Below, piece after piece: positions 24,008 to 31,748 of a stretch of 40,300 bases of DNA. The DNA is from Caldifarciminota bacterium. GTDB taxonomy: Bacteria > Hydrothermota > Hydrothermia > Hydrothermales > JAJRUZ01. Both the position numbers and the translations under genes were made by a program. Location: the NCBI GenBank assembly GCA_024277525.1, contig JAJRUZ010000081.1:1-40300 (forward strand), in the 5' to 3' direction. The notes under the pieces were generated by a model that saw only the letters and a list, made by a program, of their open reading frames with translations, was not told the origin of the DNA and did not search any database. Every line of letters begins with the position of its first letter. Position 1 is the stretch's first letter.

Positions 24008-24340
24008 TTGAAGGAAAAAGAAATCGGATTTGCTGAAGATTTTAAAAACTTTATTCTTTCAGTTATAATTTTTACTTCAGGAGAAATGCTTGCTTTACCA
24101 TTGATAACAACTATTACAACAATTTTTGCAAAAAAGGAGAAAAAGAGCTTGTATCTCGGTTTTCAAGGACTCGCAGAAGGACTCGGATGGGCAAGTGCTC
24201 CTGTATTCGGAGGAATCGTTCTGGATAATTTTATTAAAAATCCGATTTCAATGTGGGGAATTATAACAATTCCCGGAATTTTAACATTTTTAATATTTTT
24301 AAAATGTGTGAAAATAAATGAAAAAAAATTTTTTAAATAG
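24008..24340 (+). pseudogene. C-terminal remnant of an MFS transporter
   Basis: An open stretch of 110 codons with no good start (first candidate is a TTG) and no SD. The sequence FTSGEMLALPLITTITTIF followed by YLGFQGLAEGLGWASAPVFGG matches the last two or three helices of a major facilitator family exporter (around TM10-12), so about the first 300 residues are missing. The frame stays open upstream only to 23963, giving unrelated sequence. It overlaps the intact MFS gene by 23 nt. Most likely a decayed duplicate or deletion scar; a small membrane protein reusing this fragment is less likely. Confidence 0.65.
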
Positions 24341-25463
24341 AAACATCTTCTTTCTCGGGCTTACTTCCCTTTTTAATGATATTGCTTCTGAAATAATTCA
24401 CCCTTTACTTCCTGTTTTTATTGCAGAAACATTAAAGGCAGGAGCAAGAGGACTCGGAATTGTAGAAGGAATAGCAGAGTTTACAAGCAGTATTTTTAAA
24501 TTAATTTCCGGAAACTTATCCGATAAATATAAAAGAAGGAAAAACTTCGCGGTACTCGGATATCTTATTGCTGCATTAACAAGACCTCTTATAGGTTTTA
24601 CTTCTCATATTTATCAGGTAGTACTTTTAAGGTTCTTCGACAGAACGGGTAAAGGAATCAGACAGGCACCCAGGGATGCTCTCATTGCAATATCCTCATT
24701 TCCGGAAGATTACGGAAAAGCATTTTCGTTTCAAAGGGCAATGGACCATCTCGGAGCATTCATAGGTCCTTTGATTACAATAGTTTTAATTTCTCATTTT
24801 ACAATAAGGCAAATTTTTTATTTTTCCATTATACCCGGAATTATTGCGGTTATTTCCATAGGAATTTTCGTTAAAGAAAAGAAAAAGGAAATTGAATTTA
24901 AAAAAAAGGATAAATTTTCATTTTATTTCAATCTTCCTTTTAAATTTTATTTTTTCCTCTTTGTATTCTTTATATTCACCATAGGAAATTCCTCGGATAC
25001 CTTCATCATTTTAAAAGCCAAAAAAGAGGGAGCATTACTTATTACCCTACCCTTGCTTTGGAGTATTTTTAATCTCATAAAATCAATAAGTTCCTTGCCG
25101 GCAGGTTATCTTGCGGATAGATTCGGAAAAAAGAGAGTTTTATTTGCAGGATGGATGATTTATTCTGTTTCTTATCTTTCCTTTGCTTTTGCAAAAGACT
25201 TCAAAAGTTTTCTTCTAACTTTCATGTTTTACGGTCTTTATTTCGGATTCACAGAAGGCATTGAAAGGGCGATTGTTTCCGATTTTCTTCCGGAAGATAA
25301 GAAAGGGACAGGATTCGGTATTTTCCACTTTGTCAAAGGAACGGGGCTTTTAATTGCAAGCATATTCTTCGGGTTCATGTGGGATATTTTCGGAATCAAA
25401 ATTCCGTTTTTAATCGGTTCTGTACTTGCCTTTTTAGCAGGATTTCTGTTAATTTTTGTGTAA
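24318..25463 (+). CDS. Major facilitator superfamily transporter
   Basis: 381 aa, 12 predicted transmembrane helices. It starts with LFNDIASEIIHPLLPVF and has the conserved GNLSDKYKRRKNFAVLGY loop between TM2 and TM3, DRTGKGIRQAPRDALI and a second-half ADRFGKKRVLFAG loop. This set identifies a widespread but poorly characterised MFS efflux group; the substrate is unknown. There is no SD before ATG 24318, and the start lies inside the end of the MFS remnant. Confidence 0.92.
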   Translation: MKKNFLNRNIFFLGLTSLFNDIASEIIHPLLPVFIAETLKAGARGLGIVEGIAEFTSSIFKLISGNLSDKYKRRKNFAVLGYLIAALTRPLIGFTSHIYQVVLLRFFDRTGKGIRQAPRDALIAISSFPEDYGKAFSFQRAMDHLGAFIGPLITIVLISHFTIRQIFYFSIIPGIIAVISIGIFVKEKKKEIEFKKKDKFSFYFNLPFKFYFFLFVFFIFTIGNSSDTFIILKAKKEGALLITLPLLWSIFNLIKSISSLPAGYLADRFGKKRVLFAGWMIYSVSYLSFAFAKDFKSFLLTFMFYGLYFGFTEGIERAIVSDFLPEDKKGTGFGIFHFVKGTGLLIASIFFGFMWDIFGIKIPFLIGSVLAFLAGFLLIFV

Positions 25464-25492
25464 AATAATAAAATTATTTTAAAATAAATATT

Positions 25493-26152
25493 ATGAATTT
25501 GATTTTAAAAATATTTTATTCACCGGATGATGCTTTTAAAGAAATAAAAGAAAAGAAACCCTTGGGTCTCCCTTTCCTTATCCTTCTTATTGTAGGAATC
25601 TTGGTTTCCTTACTCTACCTTCATTTTGTCATCCTTCCCAATAAGGAGACAATTTTAATGGAAAGGAATATACCCGAACAGACAATGCAAAAGACCATGG
25701 AATTTATGAGTTCACCCATTTTTTATGTGATTACATTGATAAGTTCTGTTTTCGGCTTTTTGATAACCACACTCGCGGTCGGTTTCATATATTTCATTGT
25801 ATCACTTCTAATGAGCGGAAAAGGTGATTTTATCGCCTACTGGAGCTCAACAATTCATATCTATGCGATATCCCTCTTGGGTTCATTAATTGCTTTTCCG
25901 ATTGCCTTAATAAAACGCTCCCCTGCTGTTCATCTTGATTTTTCACTTTTGGTCCAATTTCTATCCGAAAAAAACTTTATAAGACTATTTTTGACTCATG
26001 CTAATTTTTTCACTTTATGGGCAACCTTCCTTTACGGGCTTGCCCTTCATTATATCGGCGAAATCAACAAGAAAAAGGCAATTTTTACTTCTTTTTCCCT
26101 ATGGCTTTTTTACGCCTTAATTGCAACATTTTTTAAAAGTTTGAAATTTTAA
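25493..26152 (+). CDS. Yip1-type integral membrane protein
   Basis: 219 aa. A short amphipathic lead (MNLILKIFYSPDDAFKEIKEKKPLG) with the phrase typical of bacterial YIP1-family (PF04893) proteins precedes about five membrane segments near residues 25-47, 75-105, 118-140, 170-190 and 196-217. Function in bacteria is unknown; members sit beside transport and lipid-related genes. There is no SD; TAAAAT lies 7 nt before the ATG, so a leaderless transcript is possible. Confidence 0.75.
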   Translation: MNLILKIFYSPDDAFKEIKEKKPLGLPFLILLIVGILVSLLYLHFVILPNKETILMERNIPEQTMQKTMEFMSSPIFYVITLISSVFGFLITTLAVGFIYFIVSLLMSGKGDFIAYWSSTIHIYAISLLGSLIAFPIALIKRSPAVHLDFSLLVQFLSEKNFIRLFLTHANFFTLWATFLYGLALHYIGEINKKKAIFTSFSLWLFYALIATFFKSLKF

Positions 26153-26169
26153 ATGTAATATATTATAAT
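26141..26169 (+). promoter_or_regulatory. Strong sigma70-like promoter of the cytochrome cluster
   Basis: TTGAAA (26141-26146), a 17-nt spacer and a perfect TATAAT (26164-26169). The -35 lies in the last codons of the Yip1 gene. The start site is expected at 26175/26176, the first bases of the GGG arm of the hairpin at 26175-26186. Confidence 0.75.
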
Positions 26170-26174
26170 ATATT

Positions 26175-26186
26175 GGGTTCAATCCC
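26175..26186 (+). promoter_or_regulatory. 5'-end hairpin of the cytochrome cluster mRNA
   Basis: GGG (26175-26177) pairs with CCC (26184-26186) around TTCAAT; read as a 7-nt loop, TTCAATC fits the T-loop consensus UUCRANY. The hairpin would form at the very 5' end of the transcript, 24 nt before the ATG. The three-pair stem alone is weak, so significance rests on its resemblance to the other four copies. Confidence 0.4.
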
Positions 26187-26210
26187 TGGCTTTTGGCGAA
26201 GGAGGGAGTA

Positions 26211-26852
26211 ATGAAAAAATTGATAATTGTTTTGGTATGCTTGGGAATGACAATTGTATTATTGTATGCAGGCGTTGCAGGCAGTAAGCACGATTTTAAC
26301 AGACCGAATACGGGAAGAGTATGCATTTTCTGTCATGCACCTCATAATGCTAATCCCAATCAACTTTTTTATTATCTGTGGAACAGGGTATATGTTCCTA
26401 CTATAACCGCCCTTTATGACGGAACTTATACCGACCCTATGACAAGTGCCTCCTGGGTAACTTATGCTTGCCTTTCTTGTCATGACGGAACACAAACAGC
26501 AGCCGATATGGGAACCCTTTATTCTTACGGACCGAAAACGGTAGGATTAAATGTCTTGGATCCCCCTGACATAACAAGCGGAACAAATGATTCCCTGACT
26601 TCCTCTCATCCCGTGGATATGGATGTTGCTCCTAATATCTTACCTTCAACCGATTTCACCGCACCGAGCACCTGGCCCGCCAATAATTTACCTTTGTTTG
26701 ACCTCTCAAACCAGCAAACAGGAGCGGATTCTGTTGTGACTTGCGCAACATGCCATGACCCTCATAATCAAAATGTCTTCACACCTGCTTATAAATTCCT
26801 GAGAGCAGACACAACCAACAGTACAATTTGTACAACCTGCCACATTAAGTAA
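26211..26852 (+). CDS. Tetrahaem c-type cytochrome, exported
   Basis: 213 aa from ATG 26211, preceded by GGAGGG. The N-terminus is a Sec signal peptide (MKKLIIVLVCLGMTIVLLYAG). Four CxxCH motifs: CIFCH 38-42, CLSCH 87-91, CATCH 178-182 and CTTCH 207-211. Two are followed by the PH of the doubled-CxxCH type (CHAPHN, CHDPHN), as in cytochrome c3-like proteins. The wide spacing between motifs 2 and 3 (~87 residues) forms a larger non-haem region with SSHPVDMD, whose His may be a distal ligand. First gene of the cytochrome cluster with its own strong promoter. The HDF...G..C.FCHA.HN start recurs in the heptahaem gene at 30129, indicating common descent. Confidence 0.92.
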   Translation: MKKLIIVLVCLGMTIVLLYAGVAGSKHDFNRPNTGRVCIFCHAPHNANPNQLFYYLWNRVYVPTITALYDGTYTDPMTSASWVTYACLSCHDGTQTAADMGTLYSYGPKTVGLNVLDPPDITSGTNDSLTSSHPVDMDVAPNILPSTDFTAPSTWPANNLPLFDLSNQQTGADSVVTCATCHDPHNQNVFTPAYKFLRADTTNSTICTTCHIK

Positions 26853-26873
26853 GTTTATTAAATAAGGCAAAAA

Positions 26874-28460
26874 GTGCATAATTTGAGAAAAGGGGGAAGG
26901 GGGATACCCTTCCTCCTTATTTTTATTTTTAATTTAAATGCTCAAATTAAAAAATTTAATGCGTCCTTCAAAGCGGAAAGATATTATATAAAAGGAAATT
27001 TTGAAAATTCTCTCACAAAACCCTTCTATAAAGATTACGAAAATTGTATAAATTTATTTTTAAACGGATATATTTATCATTATAATTTTGTAAATTATGA
27101 ATTTAAAACCTATTTTGTATGGCAGGGATGGAATAAAAACCTGAGAGGAATTGAAGAAAAAAATTTTTTGAAAACACCATACAGCCTGAATATCCGAATT
27201 TTTCCCAAAACCAGATTTCCTTTCAGATTTTTTGTGAAAAGGGAAGATTTTAGAAAAGAAAAAAATACAACTTATTCAATAAAAACTTTAACTTACATCG
27301 TTTCTCAATCTTTAATTCTTCCCAAATTACCCTCAATTAATTTTTCTTACAGATTCAGAACAGAAAACAAAGTTAAGAGAAATGCATATTCATTTAAAAT
27401 TAATTATATGCTTTTTAAAAATCATTCCTTATTTTTACTGTATCGAAGGGAATTACCATCTGTATTTCCCTCTTCTCAAAATTTAAGATTTCAATACAAT
27501 TATCAAATTCCGGGTAAATTAAGGGTAAATTATTATCTCAACAATTTTACAAGAAATAATTATTATCTTCTTCATTCAAATTTGAATTTTGAAAAATTCA
27601 GAAAAAGGAATTATCTCTTGAGTTTTTATCATTTTATGAGCAAAACAAAATATTTAACCTCAAATTCCCTTACCTTGAAATATAAAAAATATTTTTCTGA
27701 AAGAGTCATATCAAACTCGGGATTATATTTTGTTTACAAAAAATCAGAAACCGAAAAAAATTTCAAAGAGGAAATTTCACAAAATTTTTCTTTTAAATTT
27801 TTGAGTTTTCCAAAAGTGCTTATCATTTCTCCCGGTGTTTCAATTATGTTCAATCAATTAAAAAAGGGAAACGGATGGGCTTATTCTTTAAGGGAAAGTA
27901 ATATGTTTGAACATAAAAAATTGCTATTTTTCAAAAATTTCAGAGTTTTTTTTAATTTTTACTACGCAGGATTCAATGACAGGTGGCTTTTTAATCAAAA
28001 GATAAGAGTGGGTTATAATTTCGGAAATTCAATAAGTTATGAATCCCCAAAATATTACATTTCTTTTAATTTTTATTTCACAAAAAATATTACAAAGGCA
28101 AATTTTTATAAAAATGAGTGGATAAAATATCATACGAGAATAGAATTCAAAACAAAAGAGATTCCTTTTTATTTATCTTATGTAAATGAGTATATAAGAA
28201 CCGAATACGGAGGAAAAATAAGAAAAGAATTTATAAGAATACTCTTCAGAGCACCTTTAAGAATATTCAATCTGTTTACCCTTACCGAAAAATTTCATTT
28301 CAGGGATAAATTTGAAAATAATCTCAAAATTACATTTTCAAAAAATTACGGCGGTTTGATTCTGAATATCAGTTTGGAATATATTTATTTAATTTATCCC
28401 GGCTCCGAACATAACTTTATAATGTATTTTATGGTAAAAAGAAATTTAAAAATAATATGA
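26874..28460 (+). CDS. Putative outer-membrane beta-barrel within the cytochrome cluster
   Basis: 528 aa. The start is uncertain (GTG 26874 or TTG 26883, no clear SD), but a signal peptide ending in NLNA before Gln is evident. The rest alternates polar and aromatic residues in strands of ~10 residues separated by short charged turns (for example YNFVNYEFKTYFVW, NFRVFFNFYYAGF, YYISFNFYFTK), the pattern of a large barrel with perhaps 20 or more strands. There are no haem motifs. Lying between a tetrahaem and a multihaem cytochrome, it is a candidate for the porin sheath of a trans-outer-membrane electron conduit, as MtrB/ExtD-type porins are; this role is inferred from position, not homology. 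It overlaps the next cytochrome by 4 nt (ATGA). Confidence 0.65.
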   Translation: MHNLRKGGRGIPFLLIFIFNLNAQIKKFNASFKAERYYIKGNFENSLTKPFYKDYENCINLFLNGYIYHYNFVNYEFKTYFVWQGWNKNLRGIEEKNFLKTPYSLNIRIFPKTRFPFRFFVKREDFRKEKNTTYSIKTLTYIVSQSLILPKLPSINFSYRFRTENKVKRNAYSFKINYMLFKNHSLFLLYRRELPSVFPSSQNLRFQYNYQIPGKLRVNYYLNNFTRNNYYLLHSNLNFEKFRKRNYLLSFYHFMSKTKYLTSNSLTLKYKKYFSERVISNSGLYFVYKKSETEKNFKEEISQNFSFKFLSFPKVLIISPGVSIMFNQLKKGNGWAYSLRESNMFEHKKLLFFKNFRVFFNFYYAGFNDRWLFNQKIRVGYNFGNSISYESPKYYISFNFYFTKNITKANFYKNEWIKYHTRIEFKTKEIPFYLSYVNEYIRTEYGGKIRKEFIRILFRAPLRIFNLFTLTEKFHFRDKFENNLKITFSKNYGGLILNISLEYIYLIYPGSEHNFIMYFMVKRNLKII

Positions 28461-29341
28461 AAATGTTAATTTTTTTTATAATTTTTCAAACTCAAAACTG
28501 TCTTAAAAAGGGGTGTCATAATTTAATTATAGAAGAAAGAATAGTTCATCCTCCGGCTGAGGAGGATTGTTCAAACTGCCATATTTTAGAAGGAAAGCAT
28601 CCTTTTAAAAAAATTGAAAATGTCTTCGAACTCTGCACTACCTGTCATGATGATAAAACAGAATCCCAACATCCACCTGCACAGGAGGATTGTACCACCT
28701 GTCATAACCCCCATTCTTCACCTATAAAAGGATTATTAAAAGAAAAACCTCCCTATTTATGCACTGAATGTCACGAAGATGTTCTAAATGGACTCGTGAG
28801 TCAGCATAAACCGGTAGAAAAAGGAAACTGTAAAAATTGCCATGATGTGCACGGAAATGAAGCAAATTATTTTCTTTTAAAAGAAGGGAATAATCTGTGT
28901 TTTAAATGCCATTCCCGAATGGGCAACAGATTTAAAAAAGCAAAATATAAACATCCCCCTGTATTTGATTGTTTAAATTGCCATAATCCCCATTCTTCCG
29001 GTTTTTCAAAACTCTTAAAAGCAATGTATCCGAGAAGCGTGTATAATTTTTTTACCTATTTACAATATGAACTCTGCTTTAACTGTCATGATGCAGATGA
29101 TTTATTTTCAAATAGTTCAGGATTCAAAAAGGGAAACAAAAATTTACATAAGGTCCATGTAAAAAGAGAAAAAGGAAGGATATGTACATTTTGTCATAAC
29201 CCTCATTTTTCCGACAATCCGAAATATATTGAAGGAGGAGAAAGTTTCGGTCCTTATGATTATATCTTGAGATTCGGTTTTAAAAAGAAAAAAGGAGGAG
29301 GAATATGCGGTCCTGCATGTCACGGAAAGGCGGAGTATTGA
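28457..29341 (+). CDS. Multihaem c-type cytochrome, 9 canonical plus 2 variant haem motifs
   Basis: 294 aa with a very short signal-like N-terminus (MKMLIFFIIFQTQN). Nine CxxCH motifs begin at residues 38, 60, 79, 102, 125, 148, 172, 207 and 243. A CX4CH (CLKKGCH, 15-21) sits right after the signal and a CX3CH (CGPACH, 284-289) near the C-terminus, so up to 11 haems are possible. Several are doubled-CxxCH repeats (CHNPHSS...LC..CH). Intervening His residues (KHPP, QHPP, QHKP) are probable distal ligands, giving bis-His low-potential haems suited to electron transfer over distance. It starts in an ATGA overlap with the barrel gene and overlaps the next cytochrome by 37 nt, so the proteins are translationally coupled. 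Confidence 0.93.
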   Translation: MKMLIFFIIFQTQNCLKKGCHNLIIEERIVHPPAEEDCSNCHILEGKHPFKKIENVFELCTTCHDDKTESQHPPAQEDCTTCHNPHSSPIKGLLKEKPPYLCTECHEDVLNGLVSQHKPVEKGNCKNCHDVHGNEANYFLLKEGNNLCFKCHSRMGNRFKKAKYKHPPVFDCLNCHNPHSSGFSKLLKAMYPRSVYNFFTYLQYELCFNCHDADDLFSNSSGFKKGNKNLHKVHVKREKGRICTFCHNPHFSDNPKYIEGGESFGPYDYILRFGFKKKKGGGICGPACHGKAEY

Positions 29342-30132
29342 TATATCTCCTTTTTCTCTCTGTTTTAACTCCTCCTACGGTCAGTTTTGTTAAAGATAAA
29401 TTTATCAGAATTGTGGTACAGGCGAATAAGGCATGGCTTTTAAAACCCGAGATAATTTATGACAGTATGTCAGCAGGAGAAATTCATCATTTCATAGTTA
29501 AATTAAAATACGGAAAAAATAAAATAAAGGTATTTTATGAAAAAAACGGAGAAACAAAATCAAAAGATTTGATAGTATATTCTTTTCCTTCAAAAAATTT
29601 TAGGGTAAGAGCCAGATTGTACACCTTTCACAATACAAAAATTTCCAAAATGTGCGAGGATTGTCATTCTATTGAATTTAAAAGTGTTTCCGAAAAAGAA
29701 GACCTTGATTGTTATACCTGTCACAAAGAGAAATTTGATAAAACTTTAAAACTTAACCCTCCTTTTGAGGAACTTTCCTGTAAAGACTGTCATGAAAAGA
29801 TATTTGACAGACCGAAATCCGATGCATGCGAAATTTGTCACGAACTTGAATCCGGATTTTATCTTCACAGTCCTTATGCGAAAGGCGAATGCATGATCTG
29901 TCATGACCCTCATTCTTCAAAAGAAAATAAATTCTTGAAAGATAAAATCAACAATTTATGCTACTTATGCCATGATAAAAAAGGATATAAAGTTCATCAT
30001 CCTGTTGCAAGTCATCCCGGAGAAAGGAAAGGAATCTACTGCACTAATTGTCATAACCCGCACGGAACAAGGTACGGTTTTCATTTGAAATGGCCCAATA
30101 AACCCGTATGTTTGGTATGTCATAAAAAATGA
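29305..30132 (+). CDS. Octahaem c-type cytochrome with N-terminal beta domain
   Basis: 275 aa. ATG 29305 is preceded by AGGAGGA. Residues 9-27 form a signal helix (GVLIYLLFLSVLTPPTVSF). Residues ~30-100 form a small all-beta domain (IRIVVQANKAWLL, KYGKNKIKVFYEKNGE) like an Ig- or carbohydrate-regulatory-type fold, possibly for docking. Eight CxxCH motifs follow, beginning at 117, 136, 159, 175, 196, 219, 246 and 269. CHDPHSSKENKFL and CHNPHGTRYGF are doubled-CxxCH signatures. Probably periplasmic or at the outer face of the outer membrane, passing electrons among the cluster's cytochromes. It overlaps its neighbours on both sides (37 and 4 nt). Confidence 0.93.
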   Translation: MRSCMSRKGGVLIYLLFLSVLTPPTVSFVKDKFIRIVVQANKAWLLKPEIIYDSMSAGEIHHFIVKLKYGKNKIKVFYEKNGETKSKDLIVYSFPSKNFRVRARLYTFHNTKISKMCEDCHSIEFKSVSEKEDLDCYTCHKEKFDKTLKLNPPFEELSCKDCHEKIFDRPKSDACEICHELESGFYLHSPYAKGECMICHDPHSSKENKFLKDKINNLCYLCHDKKGYKVHHPVASHPGERKGIYCTNCHNPHGTRYGFHLKWPNKPVCLVCHKK

Positions 30133-30761
30133 AGCCGATTCTTTTATTTATTTTACTTTTACAATTTCCCCATGACTTTACAAATAAAGAAGGCGAAAGA
30201 AAATGCAAATTTTGCCATGCTTCTCATAACTCAAAAGGTCCTTATCTCATCAATCTTATTCCTTTTGATGAATTAAAGGATAATTTTAAGGGCTTTGATT
30301 ATGTTTCTTTAACATGTATGAACTGTCATACTGATAAGAAATACCTTTTAATTTTATACCCGGAAGTTGAAAAATTCTACCGAATTCCAGATACATCGGA
30401 AATTTTTTTGGGCAAGGAATATGATAAAACCCATCACCCCGTGGGTGAATTTGTTTCAGAAAGCGGAGAAAGATTGATAAAATGCACAACATGTCATGAT
30501 CCCCATAGAAAAAAATTTAAATATCTTTTAAAAAAGCCCTTATACGAACTATGTAAAAAATGCCATCGAATATATACAAACAAGGAATCCCATTCGGGAT
30601 TGAATTGTTTGAATTGTCATAAACTTCATAAAAGCAGAGCCGAACCTCTGGTAAAGAAAAATGATATATGTATGGACTGTCATACCGAAACATTTTCAAT
30701 CATAGAGGGACATCGAGCCGATAAAAAATGTATAACCTGTCATAATCCGCATAATCCTTAG
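30129..30761 (+). CDS. Heptahaem c-type cytochrome, doubled-CxxCH family
   Basis: 210 aa with a short signal peptide (MKPILLFILLLQ). Seven CxxCH motifs begin at residues 26, 63, 119, 142, 160, 181 and 201. The opening PHDFTN...GERKCKFCHASHN mirrors the start of the tetrahaem protein at 26211. THHPVGEF and ESHSGLNC supply likely axial His residues. It starts in an ATGA overlap with the octahaem gene and ends 12 nt before the beta-propeller gene, which has its own strong SD. Its exact place in the electron path is unknown. Confidence 0.93.
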   Translation: MKPILLFILLLQFPHDFTNKEGERKCKFCHASHNSKGPYLINLIPFDELKDNFKGFDYVSLTCMNCHTDKKYLLILYPEVEKFYRIPDTSEIFLGKEYDKTHHPVGEFVSESGERLIKCTTCHDPHRKKFKYLLKKPLYELCKKCHRIYTNKESHSGLNCLNCHKLHKSRAEPLVKKNDICMDCHTETFSIIEGHRADKKCITCHNPHNP

Positions 30762-30773
30762 AAGGAGGATGAA

Positions 30774-31748
30774 ATGAAATTGTTTTTTATTTTTCTTTTA
30801 TTTTCACAGACAAAATCAACTGAATATGTATGGCCACCTCCTCCTGAAAAAGCAAGAATTAAGTTTGATAGATTTCTGGTTACAAAAGAGGATATAACCG
30901 GAGAGGGAAATATATTCAAAAGATTACTGAATAAAGTTCTCGGTATAAAAAAGATAAGGCTTTTAAAATATCCTTTCGGTATTTATGTTGACTCTAAAGG
31001 GGTTATATATGTTGCGGACCCGGGCTTTGCTGCAATTGTGATTATTGATCAAAAAAACAGAAAGGTGAAATGGTATCAGAGTGCAGGAAGATTCCGGTTT
31101 ATAAGACCCACCGGAGTTTATGTGTCCGAGTCAAAAAATATGTTATATGTTGCCGACCCCGGAGCAAAGGGGGTTTTCGGAATACAATTGCCTGATTTTA
31201 AAGGAAAACTATTTATAAGAAAGGCTTTATTTAAGCCAGTGAATCTTGCGGTTGATGATTACAGAAAAAAACTGTATGTACTTGATGATAGTTTAATGAG
31301 CATTCAGGTTTTTAATCTCGAGGGAAAATTTCTATTCTCCATAGGTAAAAAGGGAAATAAGCCGGGTGAATTTTTATACCCTACAGGTATAAATATTGAC
31401 AAAGAGGGAAACATTTATGTTTGTGAATGGGGAAATTTCAGGGTTCAGATTTTAAATCCGAGAGGTGAGGTAATAAATGTTTTCGGAAAAGCGGGAAATG
31501 CCCCCGGGTTTTTTATAAGACCGAAATGTGTAGCAGTTGATGAAAAGGGTTATATTTATGTTACCGATGCATTTTTACACAGATTTCAAATATTTGACAA
31601 ATACGGCAATGTGTATTTGGGAATAGAAGGGATAGGAGGCGAACCCGGGCAATTCAGATTGCCTGCGGGAATATTTGTCAGAAATAAAAAAATATATGTG
31701 GTCGAACAGATGAATTCAAGGATTCAGATATTTGATATTCTTTATTAA
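30774..31748 (+). CDS. Exported six-bladed NHL-type beta-propeller protein
   Basis: 324 aa with a strong AGGAGG SD. A signal peptide (MKLFFIFLLFSQTKS) precedes the phrase EYVWPPPPEKARIKF, common at the start of propeller proteins encoded beside multihaem cytochromes. Propeller blades follow with repeats such as YPFGIYVDSKGVIYVADPG, IRPTGVYVSE.KNMLYVADPG and YPTGINIDKEGNIYVCEWGN, each ending in a phrase like FRVQILNPRGE or SRIQIFD. NHL proteins act as binding scaffolds; members occur near outer-surface cytochrome genes in Geobacter-like bacteria. It is the last gene of the cluster and is convergent with a lipoprotein gene 4 nt away. Confidence 0.9.
   Translation: MKLFFIFLLFSQTKSTEYVWPPPPEKARIKFDRFLVTKEDITGEGNIFKRLLNKVLGIKKIRLLKYPFGIYVDSKGVIYVADPGFAAIVIIDQKNRKVKWYQSAGRFRFIRPTGVYVSESKNMLYVADPGAKGVFGIQLPDFKGKLFIRKALFKPVNLAVDDYRKKLYVLDDSLMSIQVFNLEGKFLFSIGKKGNKPGEFLYPTGINIDKEGNIYVCEWGNFRVQILNPRGEVINVFGKAGNAPGFFIRPKCVAVDEKGYIYVTDAFLHRFQIFDKYGNVYLGIEGIGGEPGQFRLPAGIFVRNKKIYVVEQMNSRIQIFDILY

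Follow-up and report, generated by a model that had tools for sequence, protein, structure and literature searches.

Gene content of the cluster

The window analysed here is a stretch of 40,300 nucleotides on contig C72 of a 2.3-Mb genome (G000, 96% complete), whose host organism belongs to the candidate phylum WOR-3, and it carries a compact cluster of multihaem cytochrome genes that we discuss as a putative nanowire system of the OmcE type. The cluster consists of six open reading frames (ORFs), all features being located on the forward strand, which code in this order for a tetrahaem cytochrome, a barrel-like protein, an 11-haem, an 8-haem and a 7-haem cytochrome, and an NHL propeller. The tetrahaem gene (213 residues, 26211–26852) starts at the ATG at 26211, which is preceded by the strong Shine-Dalgarno sequence AAGGAGGG (26199–26206), and a TTG further 5', at 26193, is an improbable alternative start. 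The gene for the barrel-like protein (528 residues, GTG start, 26874–28460) overlaps the 11-haem gene (28457–29341) by 4 nucleotides. The 8-haem gene has two ATG candidates, at 29305, where the ORF begins, and at 29317 (29317–30132), sharing 37 nucleotides with the 11-haem gene from the first and 25 from the second; it overlaps the 7-haem gene (30129–30761) by 4 nucleotides, and the propeller gene (30774–31748) starts 12 nucleotides 3' of the heptahaem stop. All six ORFs are located where a preliminary description of the window had placed them, and the overlaps of 4–37 nucleotides given there are confirmed.

The first gene codes for an OmcE-like tetrahaem cytochrome

Searching the PDB with the tetrahaem protein yielded only two credible matches, 9yuq, a 'putative multiheme cytochrome c' (E-value 4.7e-17 across residues 1–213), and 7tfs, OmcE of Geobacter sulfurreducens (9.6e-13 across residues 27–213). 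The protein contains four CxxCH motifs and exactly four histidines outside these motifs (H27, H45, H133 and H185). In the alignment with 9yuq, each of the four haem motifs and each of the four remaining histidines has a counterpart, and motifs and distal histidines alike are invariant among close relatives. With OmcE and 9YUQ the protein shares full-length homology, a similar size and four CxxCH motifs together with four histidines for bis-His ligation, whereas it differs from them in that it originates from WOR-3, is about one third identical at most, and is a predicted filament protein. It is tetrahaem and OmcE-like rather than hexahaem like OmcS or GSU2501. The gene thus most likely encodes an OmcE-type nanowire subunit, the product of which may polymerise into a filament; in OmcE wires one haem is common to neighbouring subunits, being ligated by a histidine of the neighbour (PMC12954529).

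The other cytochromes and the NHL propeller

The four cytochrome genes contain 4, 9, 8 and 7 CxxCH motifs. In addition, the second of these proteins has two odd motifs, CLKKGCH (CX4CH) and CGPACH (CX3CH), which are invariant in two relatives, and exactly 11 histidines outside the motifs, making it reasonable to count 11 haems for this protein and 30 predicted haem sites (4 + 11 + 8 + 7) for the cluster, in agreement with the 'up to 30 haems' proposed earlier. The best PDB match of both the 11-haem and the 8-haem protein was MtrA (6r2q_A; 2.3e-16 and 6.6e-14, respectively), and the DmsE/MtrA decahaem family TIGR03508 scored 89.5 and 76.2 with them, far short of its cut-off of 192.2. The 11-haem protein is a candidate barrel insert, the N-terminal domain of the 8-haem protein is free of haem motifs, and the 7-haem protein is of the doubled-CXXCH type. 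Neither an MtrB-type porin nor an MtrC/OmcA protein was detected among the cluster proteins, and a first contig scan with the 8-haem protein as query gave no match. The last gene codes for the predicted NHL protein, a six-bladed β-propeller (PF01436, 2.2e-20) that is 76% identical in relatives.

Between 29305 and 29341 the end of the 11-haem gene runs into the beginning of the 8-haem gene, so that 37 (or 25) bases are coding in two different frames. This overlap is retained in the related genomes G001 and G003, so that the terminal CGPACHGKAEY of the one protein and the MSRKGG start of the other are mutually constrained.

Conservation within WOR-3 and the second half of the module

The order of the six genes is intact in G001 and G003, which belong to the same family but to another genus, with protein identities of 50–76%, excluding that the cluster arose by chance; the synteny by which the preliminary description had suggested to check its proposal is thus present. 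The nanowire gene and the barrel are both missing from G002, the remaining family member sampled. In G014, a genome of the same class but from another family, a single gene run comprises OmcE, barrel, propeller, 14-haem, 10-haem, 8-haem, 7-haem and NHL genes. Counterparts of its propeller and its large cytochrome are located on contig C33 of the window genome (L027:7221–10120), where a propeller is accompanied by an 11-haem cytochrome.

Among 147 genomes of the WOR-3 phylum the OmcE-like gene is present in five (G000, G001, G003, G007 and G014), and the large (11-haem) partner cytochrome is found in the same five and in G012 (77% complete), giving a hypergeometric probability of 1e-8 for this co-occurrence if shared ancestry is ignored. 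As the pair on C33 tracks the nanowire gene over these genomes and sits within the cluster in G014, it is assigned to the nanowire system. The propeller/large-cytochrome pair adjoins major facilitator superfamily (MFS)-type genes in G001 and G003, and these MFS-type genes lie just 5' of the cluster in the window, as would be expected if pair and cluster once formed a single locus. The C33 propeller is probably displayed at the cell surface since it carries a type IX secretion system (T9SS) C-terminal sorting domain.

Genome-wide, 67 matches to T9SS C-terminal sorting domains were counted in G000, and the type IX system thus appears to be one of the main routes of export in this organism. A recent transfer of the module into WOR-3 was considered and is not favoured, the 11-haem proteins of WOR-3 forming a deep cluster of their own that a single, unreliable long-branch row joins from outside.

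OmcE-type loci in other phyla

When 84,980 species genomes were scanned, 80 OmcE-like loci were obtained, which come from many phyla. The recurrent order comprises an OmcE-like gene, a haem-free protein of about 560–970 residues, a propeller of about 340 residues and a cytochrome of 540–730 residues with 10 or 11 motifs, and barrel, propeller and cytochrome are strictly ordered in 20 loci. This order of OmcE, giant barrel, propeller and 10/11-haem cytochrome occurs in loci of at least 10 other phyla, among them Proteobacteria, Nitrospirota, Aquificota, Campylobacterota, Planctomycetota, Verrucomicrobiota and Acidobacteriota. The kinds of genes match those of the window cluster, and within WOR-3 G014 retains the order in a single run, whereas the family of the window organism has the propeller/11-haem pair elsewhere in the genome and a barrel of 528 instead of 559–965 residues.

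A second layout was observed in proteobacterial OmcE loci (L052, L056, L076, L078, L086, L092, L095, L114 and L116), in which the OmcE-like gene is accompanied by a haem-free ORF of 290–380 residues, a barrel of about 600–670 residues and several trihaem genes of 130–270 residues. The barrel family of this layout is related to that of the first by profile comparison (99.3%).

The barrel-like protein

Among the proteins of the window the barrel-like protein shows the strongest β alternation (z 3.7), and it contains few cysteines. It matched none of the porin families compared (MtrB/PioB, OmbB, Pcc and Ext), which is in line with the earlier statement that the cluster does not correspond to Mtr, Pcc or Ext systems; the family searches suggested at that time brought no porin family for the barrel but a full-length OmcE relationship for the first gene, which the preliminary description had missed. 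The barrel at the same position of locus L038, folded from 24 homologues, gave a closed structure of about 30 strands with a predicted local distance difference test (pLDDT) score of 89. Foldseek aligned this model with generic large barrels only (Cir, LptD and MtrB, template modelling score of about 0.3), and therefore no specific fold family is claimed. Homology of the window barrel to the barrels of other phyla was considered at a profile probability of 68% and dropped, a forward-versus-reversed barrel control reaching 83%. The window protein is predicted to be an outer-membrane barrel from its position and composition, not from proven homology, and what it seems to have in common with the larger barrels is position and kind of protein.

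Promoter, hairpin and expression

The cluster is preceded by a sigma-70-like promoter (TTGAAA-17-TATAAT, 26141–26169) upstream of the nanowire gene, which matches the consensus in 11 of 12 positions and is the best site in the region. Such sites are, however, not more frequent than expected by chance (36 versus 31.9), and the match is weaker in relatives, where the AGGAGG core of the Shine-Dalgarno sequence is conserved. A terminator-like hairpin followed by a T-run (26890–26918; -24.5 kcal/mol, z -3.4) is located immediately 3' of the nanowire gene, in the part of the barrel gene that encodes the signal peptide. Because this hairpin separates the first gene from the remainder, it is doubtful that a single promoter serves all six genes, as claimed before, and expression of the six as a single uniform unit is improbable.

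Hairpins of differing sequence are found at the corresponding place in L025, L026, L036 and L037, the last without a T-run, and all five WOR-3 genomes with a nanowire gene have a hairpin after it. In a simple stem-energy scan that included the other phyla, where not all loci are independent, a very stable hairpin was present within 90 nucleotides of the stop codon in 36% of the OmcE-like genes (27/75), as compared to 6% of 205 neighbouring cytochrome/propeller genes, and the 20 barrel genes included had none. Together with the strong Shine-Dalgarno sequence the hairpin would fit a nanowire subunit that is made in excess over the portal.

Possible electron supply elsewhere in the genome

The preliminary description had found no quinol-oxidising inner-membrane component in the window; complexes of this type are present elsewhere in the genome and, in relatives, beside the cluster. 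Contig C9 encodes 8-, 9- and 16-haem cytochromes, a 4Fe-4S ferredoxin-type protein, an NrfD-like protein, a Rieske protein and cytochrome b, and contig C25 encodes 9-haem cytochromes, a b-type cytochrome and an 18-haem NapC-type protein. In G014, G007 and G012 the cluster is adjoined by genes that apparently code for proteins of this quinol-oxidising type, and cytochrome c assembly genes are present in the window genome. The OmcE-type subunit, the second half of the module, the hairpin after the nanowire gene and the location of the quinol-oxidising side elsewhere all go beyond the preliminary description.

The multihaem respiratory genes on C9 (L028 and L029) and C25 (L030) form at least three sets. 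The first is a 723-residue fusion of a 16-haem protein with a cytochrome b that resembles formate dehydrogenase gamma, the second a run of 8-haem, iron-sulphur, NrfD-like, cytochrome b, 9-haem, 16-haem, Rieske, cytochrome b and 5-haem genes, and the third a 9-haem/b-type/9-haem/18-haem NapC-type set.

Proposed function and alternatives

Most likely, the cluster is a module that serves both export and conduction for an OmcE-type cytochrome nanowire and includes its outer-membrane portal. The tetrahaem protein would be secreted and polymerise end to end, so that the haems of the filament form a continuous chain, as suggested by homology, and the barrel would serve as portal in the outer membrane. 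The 11-haem MtrA-like protein, together with the 8- and 7-haem proteins, might carry periplasmic electrons to the portal or across it and pass them to the filament base, whereas the two propellers, the NHL protein and the T9SS-tagged C33 protein with its 11-haem partner, could act in anchoring, capping or assembling the filament at the surface. Electrons from quinol would enter via the C9- and C25-encoded multihaem complexes of the Rieske/cytochrome b, NrfD and NapC types, and the hairpin after the nanowire gene would allow far more subunit than portal to be produced. It is conceivable, although we regard this as tentative, that a WOR-3 lineage has a divergent nanowire system, in which an OmcE-type filament is built and fed by a compact complex of an 11-, an 8- and a 7-haem protein with a barrel of its own family, and in which the terminator in the signal-peptide codons controls how much filament is made relative to portal, translation deciding if transcription continues.

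Several points weigh against this assignment. Filament formation, electron flow and its direction are predictions, and a role of cytochrome filaments in respiratory electron transport is disputed even in Geobacter (PMC11077965). As for the barrel, its topology and place in the electron route are likewise predicted; the AlphaFold2 model of the window protein, derived from 3 sequences only, has a pLDDT of 28, and its homology to other barrels is unsupported, reversed-profile controls scoring equally.

Electron export via a barrel and multihaem cytochromes, as put forward previously, is supported by the β alternation, the MtrA matches and the synteny in relatives. To call it a 'distinct electron-export route' is too strong as clusters of nanowire, porin, cytochrome and propeller genes are known (PMC10553843, PMC12977616) and recur in many phyla. 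OetABI with OmcX/OmcS of sulfate reducers partnering anaerobic methanotrophic archaea (ANME) has been proposed to be an electron conduit (PMC10553843). Like this system and the block GSU2500–GSU2493 (PMC12977616), the window combines a predicted filament gene with a porin-like barrel and several multihaem cytochromes, and with a propeller; it differs in that its filament protein is a tetrahaem OmcE-type, not a hexahaem OmcS-type protein, and in that a prolyl isomerase gene is missing. The window barrel shows no detectable relation to the porins of these systems, the comparison having been made without the sequences of their clusters.

The same architecture would permit a different function, in which barrel, cytochromes and propellers mainly mature and secrete the nanowire and electrons reach the filament otherwise, a possibility that we judge clearly less probable than a conduit. 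Secretion has been proposed for the eight-gene block beside omcS, GSU2500–GSU2493, in a 2025 study cited in PMC12977616, and present data do not decide between this proposal and the conduit of PMC10553843. The large size of the recurrent barrel, with its approximately 30 strands, and the propellers that recurrently adjoin filament genes would suit such a machine; three multihaem proteins with 26 haems, however, exceed the needs of a pure secretion pore, and two of them best match MtrA, an insulated trans-membrane wire. Shen et al. reportedly described in 2025 a prolyl-isomerase chaperone gene in the omcS-linked cluster, whereas domain searches found no prolyl-isomerase domain in the six proteins studied here.

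Less likely still is an ordinary Mtr/Pcc-like porin-cytochrome conduit with the tetrahaem protein as soluble or surface-bound terminal reductase that does not polymerise. The MtrA-like 11- and 8-haem proteins resemble a component of MtrCAB (PDB 6R2Q), and many multihaem proteins are not filaments. In contrast to MtrCAB, the cluster lacks a detected MtrB-type porin and MtrC, has an additional 7-haem protein and propellers, and appears to have a filament subunit in place of the surface decahaem protein; moreover, the similarity of the tetrahaem protein to filament-forming proteins extends from end to end and includes all eight haem ligands, and hairpin and Shine-Dalgarno sequence indicate a highly expressed structural subunit. 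That the filament works inward, gathering electrons from minerals or partner cells, is similarly improbable, for although a like conduit has been proposed for electron uptake in ANME-partner sulfate reducers (PMC10553843), the genome encodes several multihaem complexes of quinol-oxidising type, which could nonetheless work either way.

Even for Geobacter it is an open question how cytochrome nanowires exit the cell and are joined to the outer membrane, and a minimal cluster with constant partners narrows down the genes required. The recurrent order of OmcE, giant barrel, propeller and 10/11-haem cytochrome provides a testable definition of OmcE systems and a better marker than the fast-evolving cytochromes alone. 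A nanowire module in the window would extend the microbial 'electrical wire' of the Geobacter type to a little-studied lineage and suggests extracellular electron exchange in WOR-3, for which the searchable literature contains at most a link to conductive pili (PMC7382037).

Flanking genes

Upstream of the cluster, at 24318–26152 of the window, are genes for an MFS transporter and for a membrane protein with a Yip1 domain. G001 and G003 likewise have the Yip1 gene 5' of the cluster, but their MFS genes adjoin the C33-type propeller/12-haem pair.
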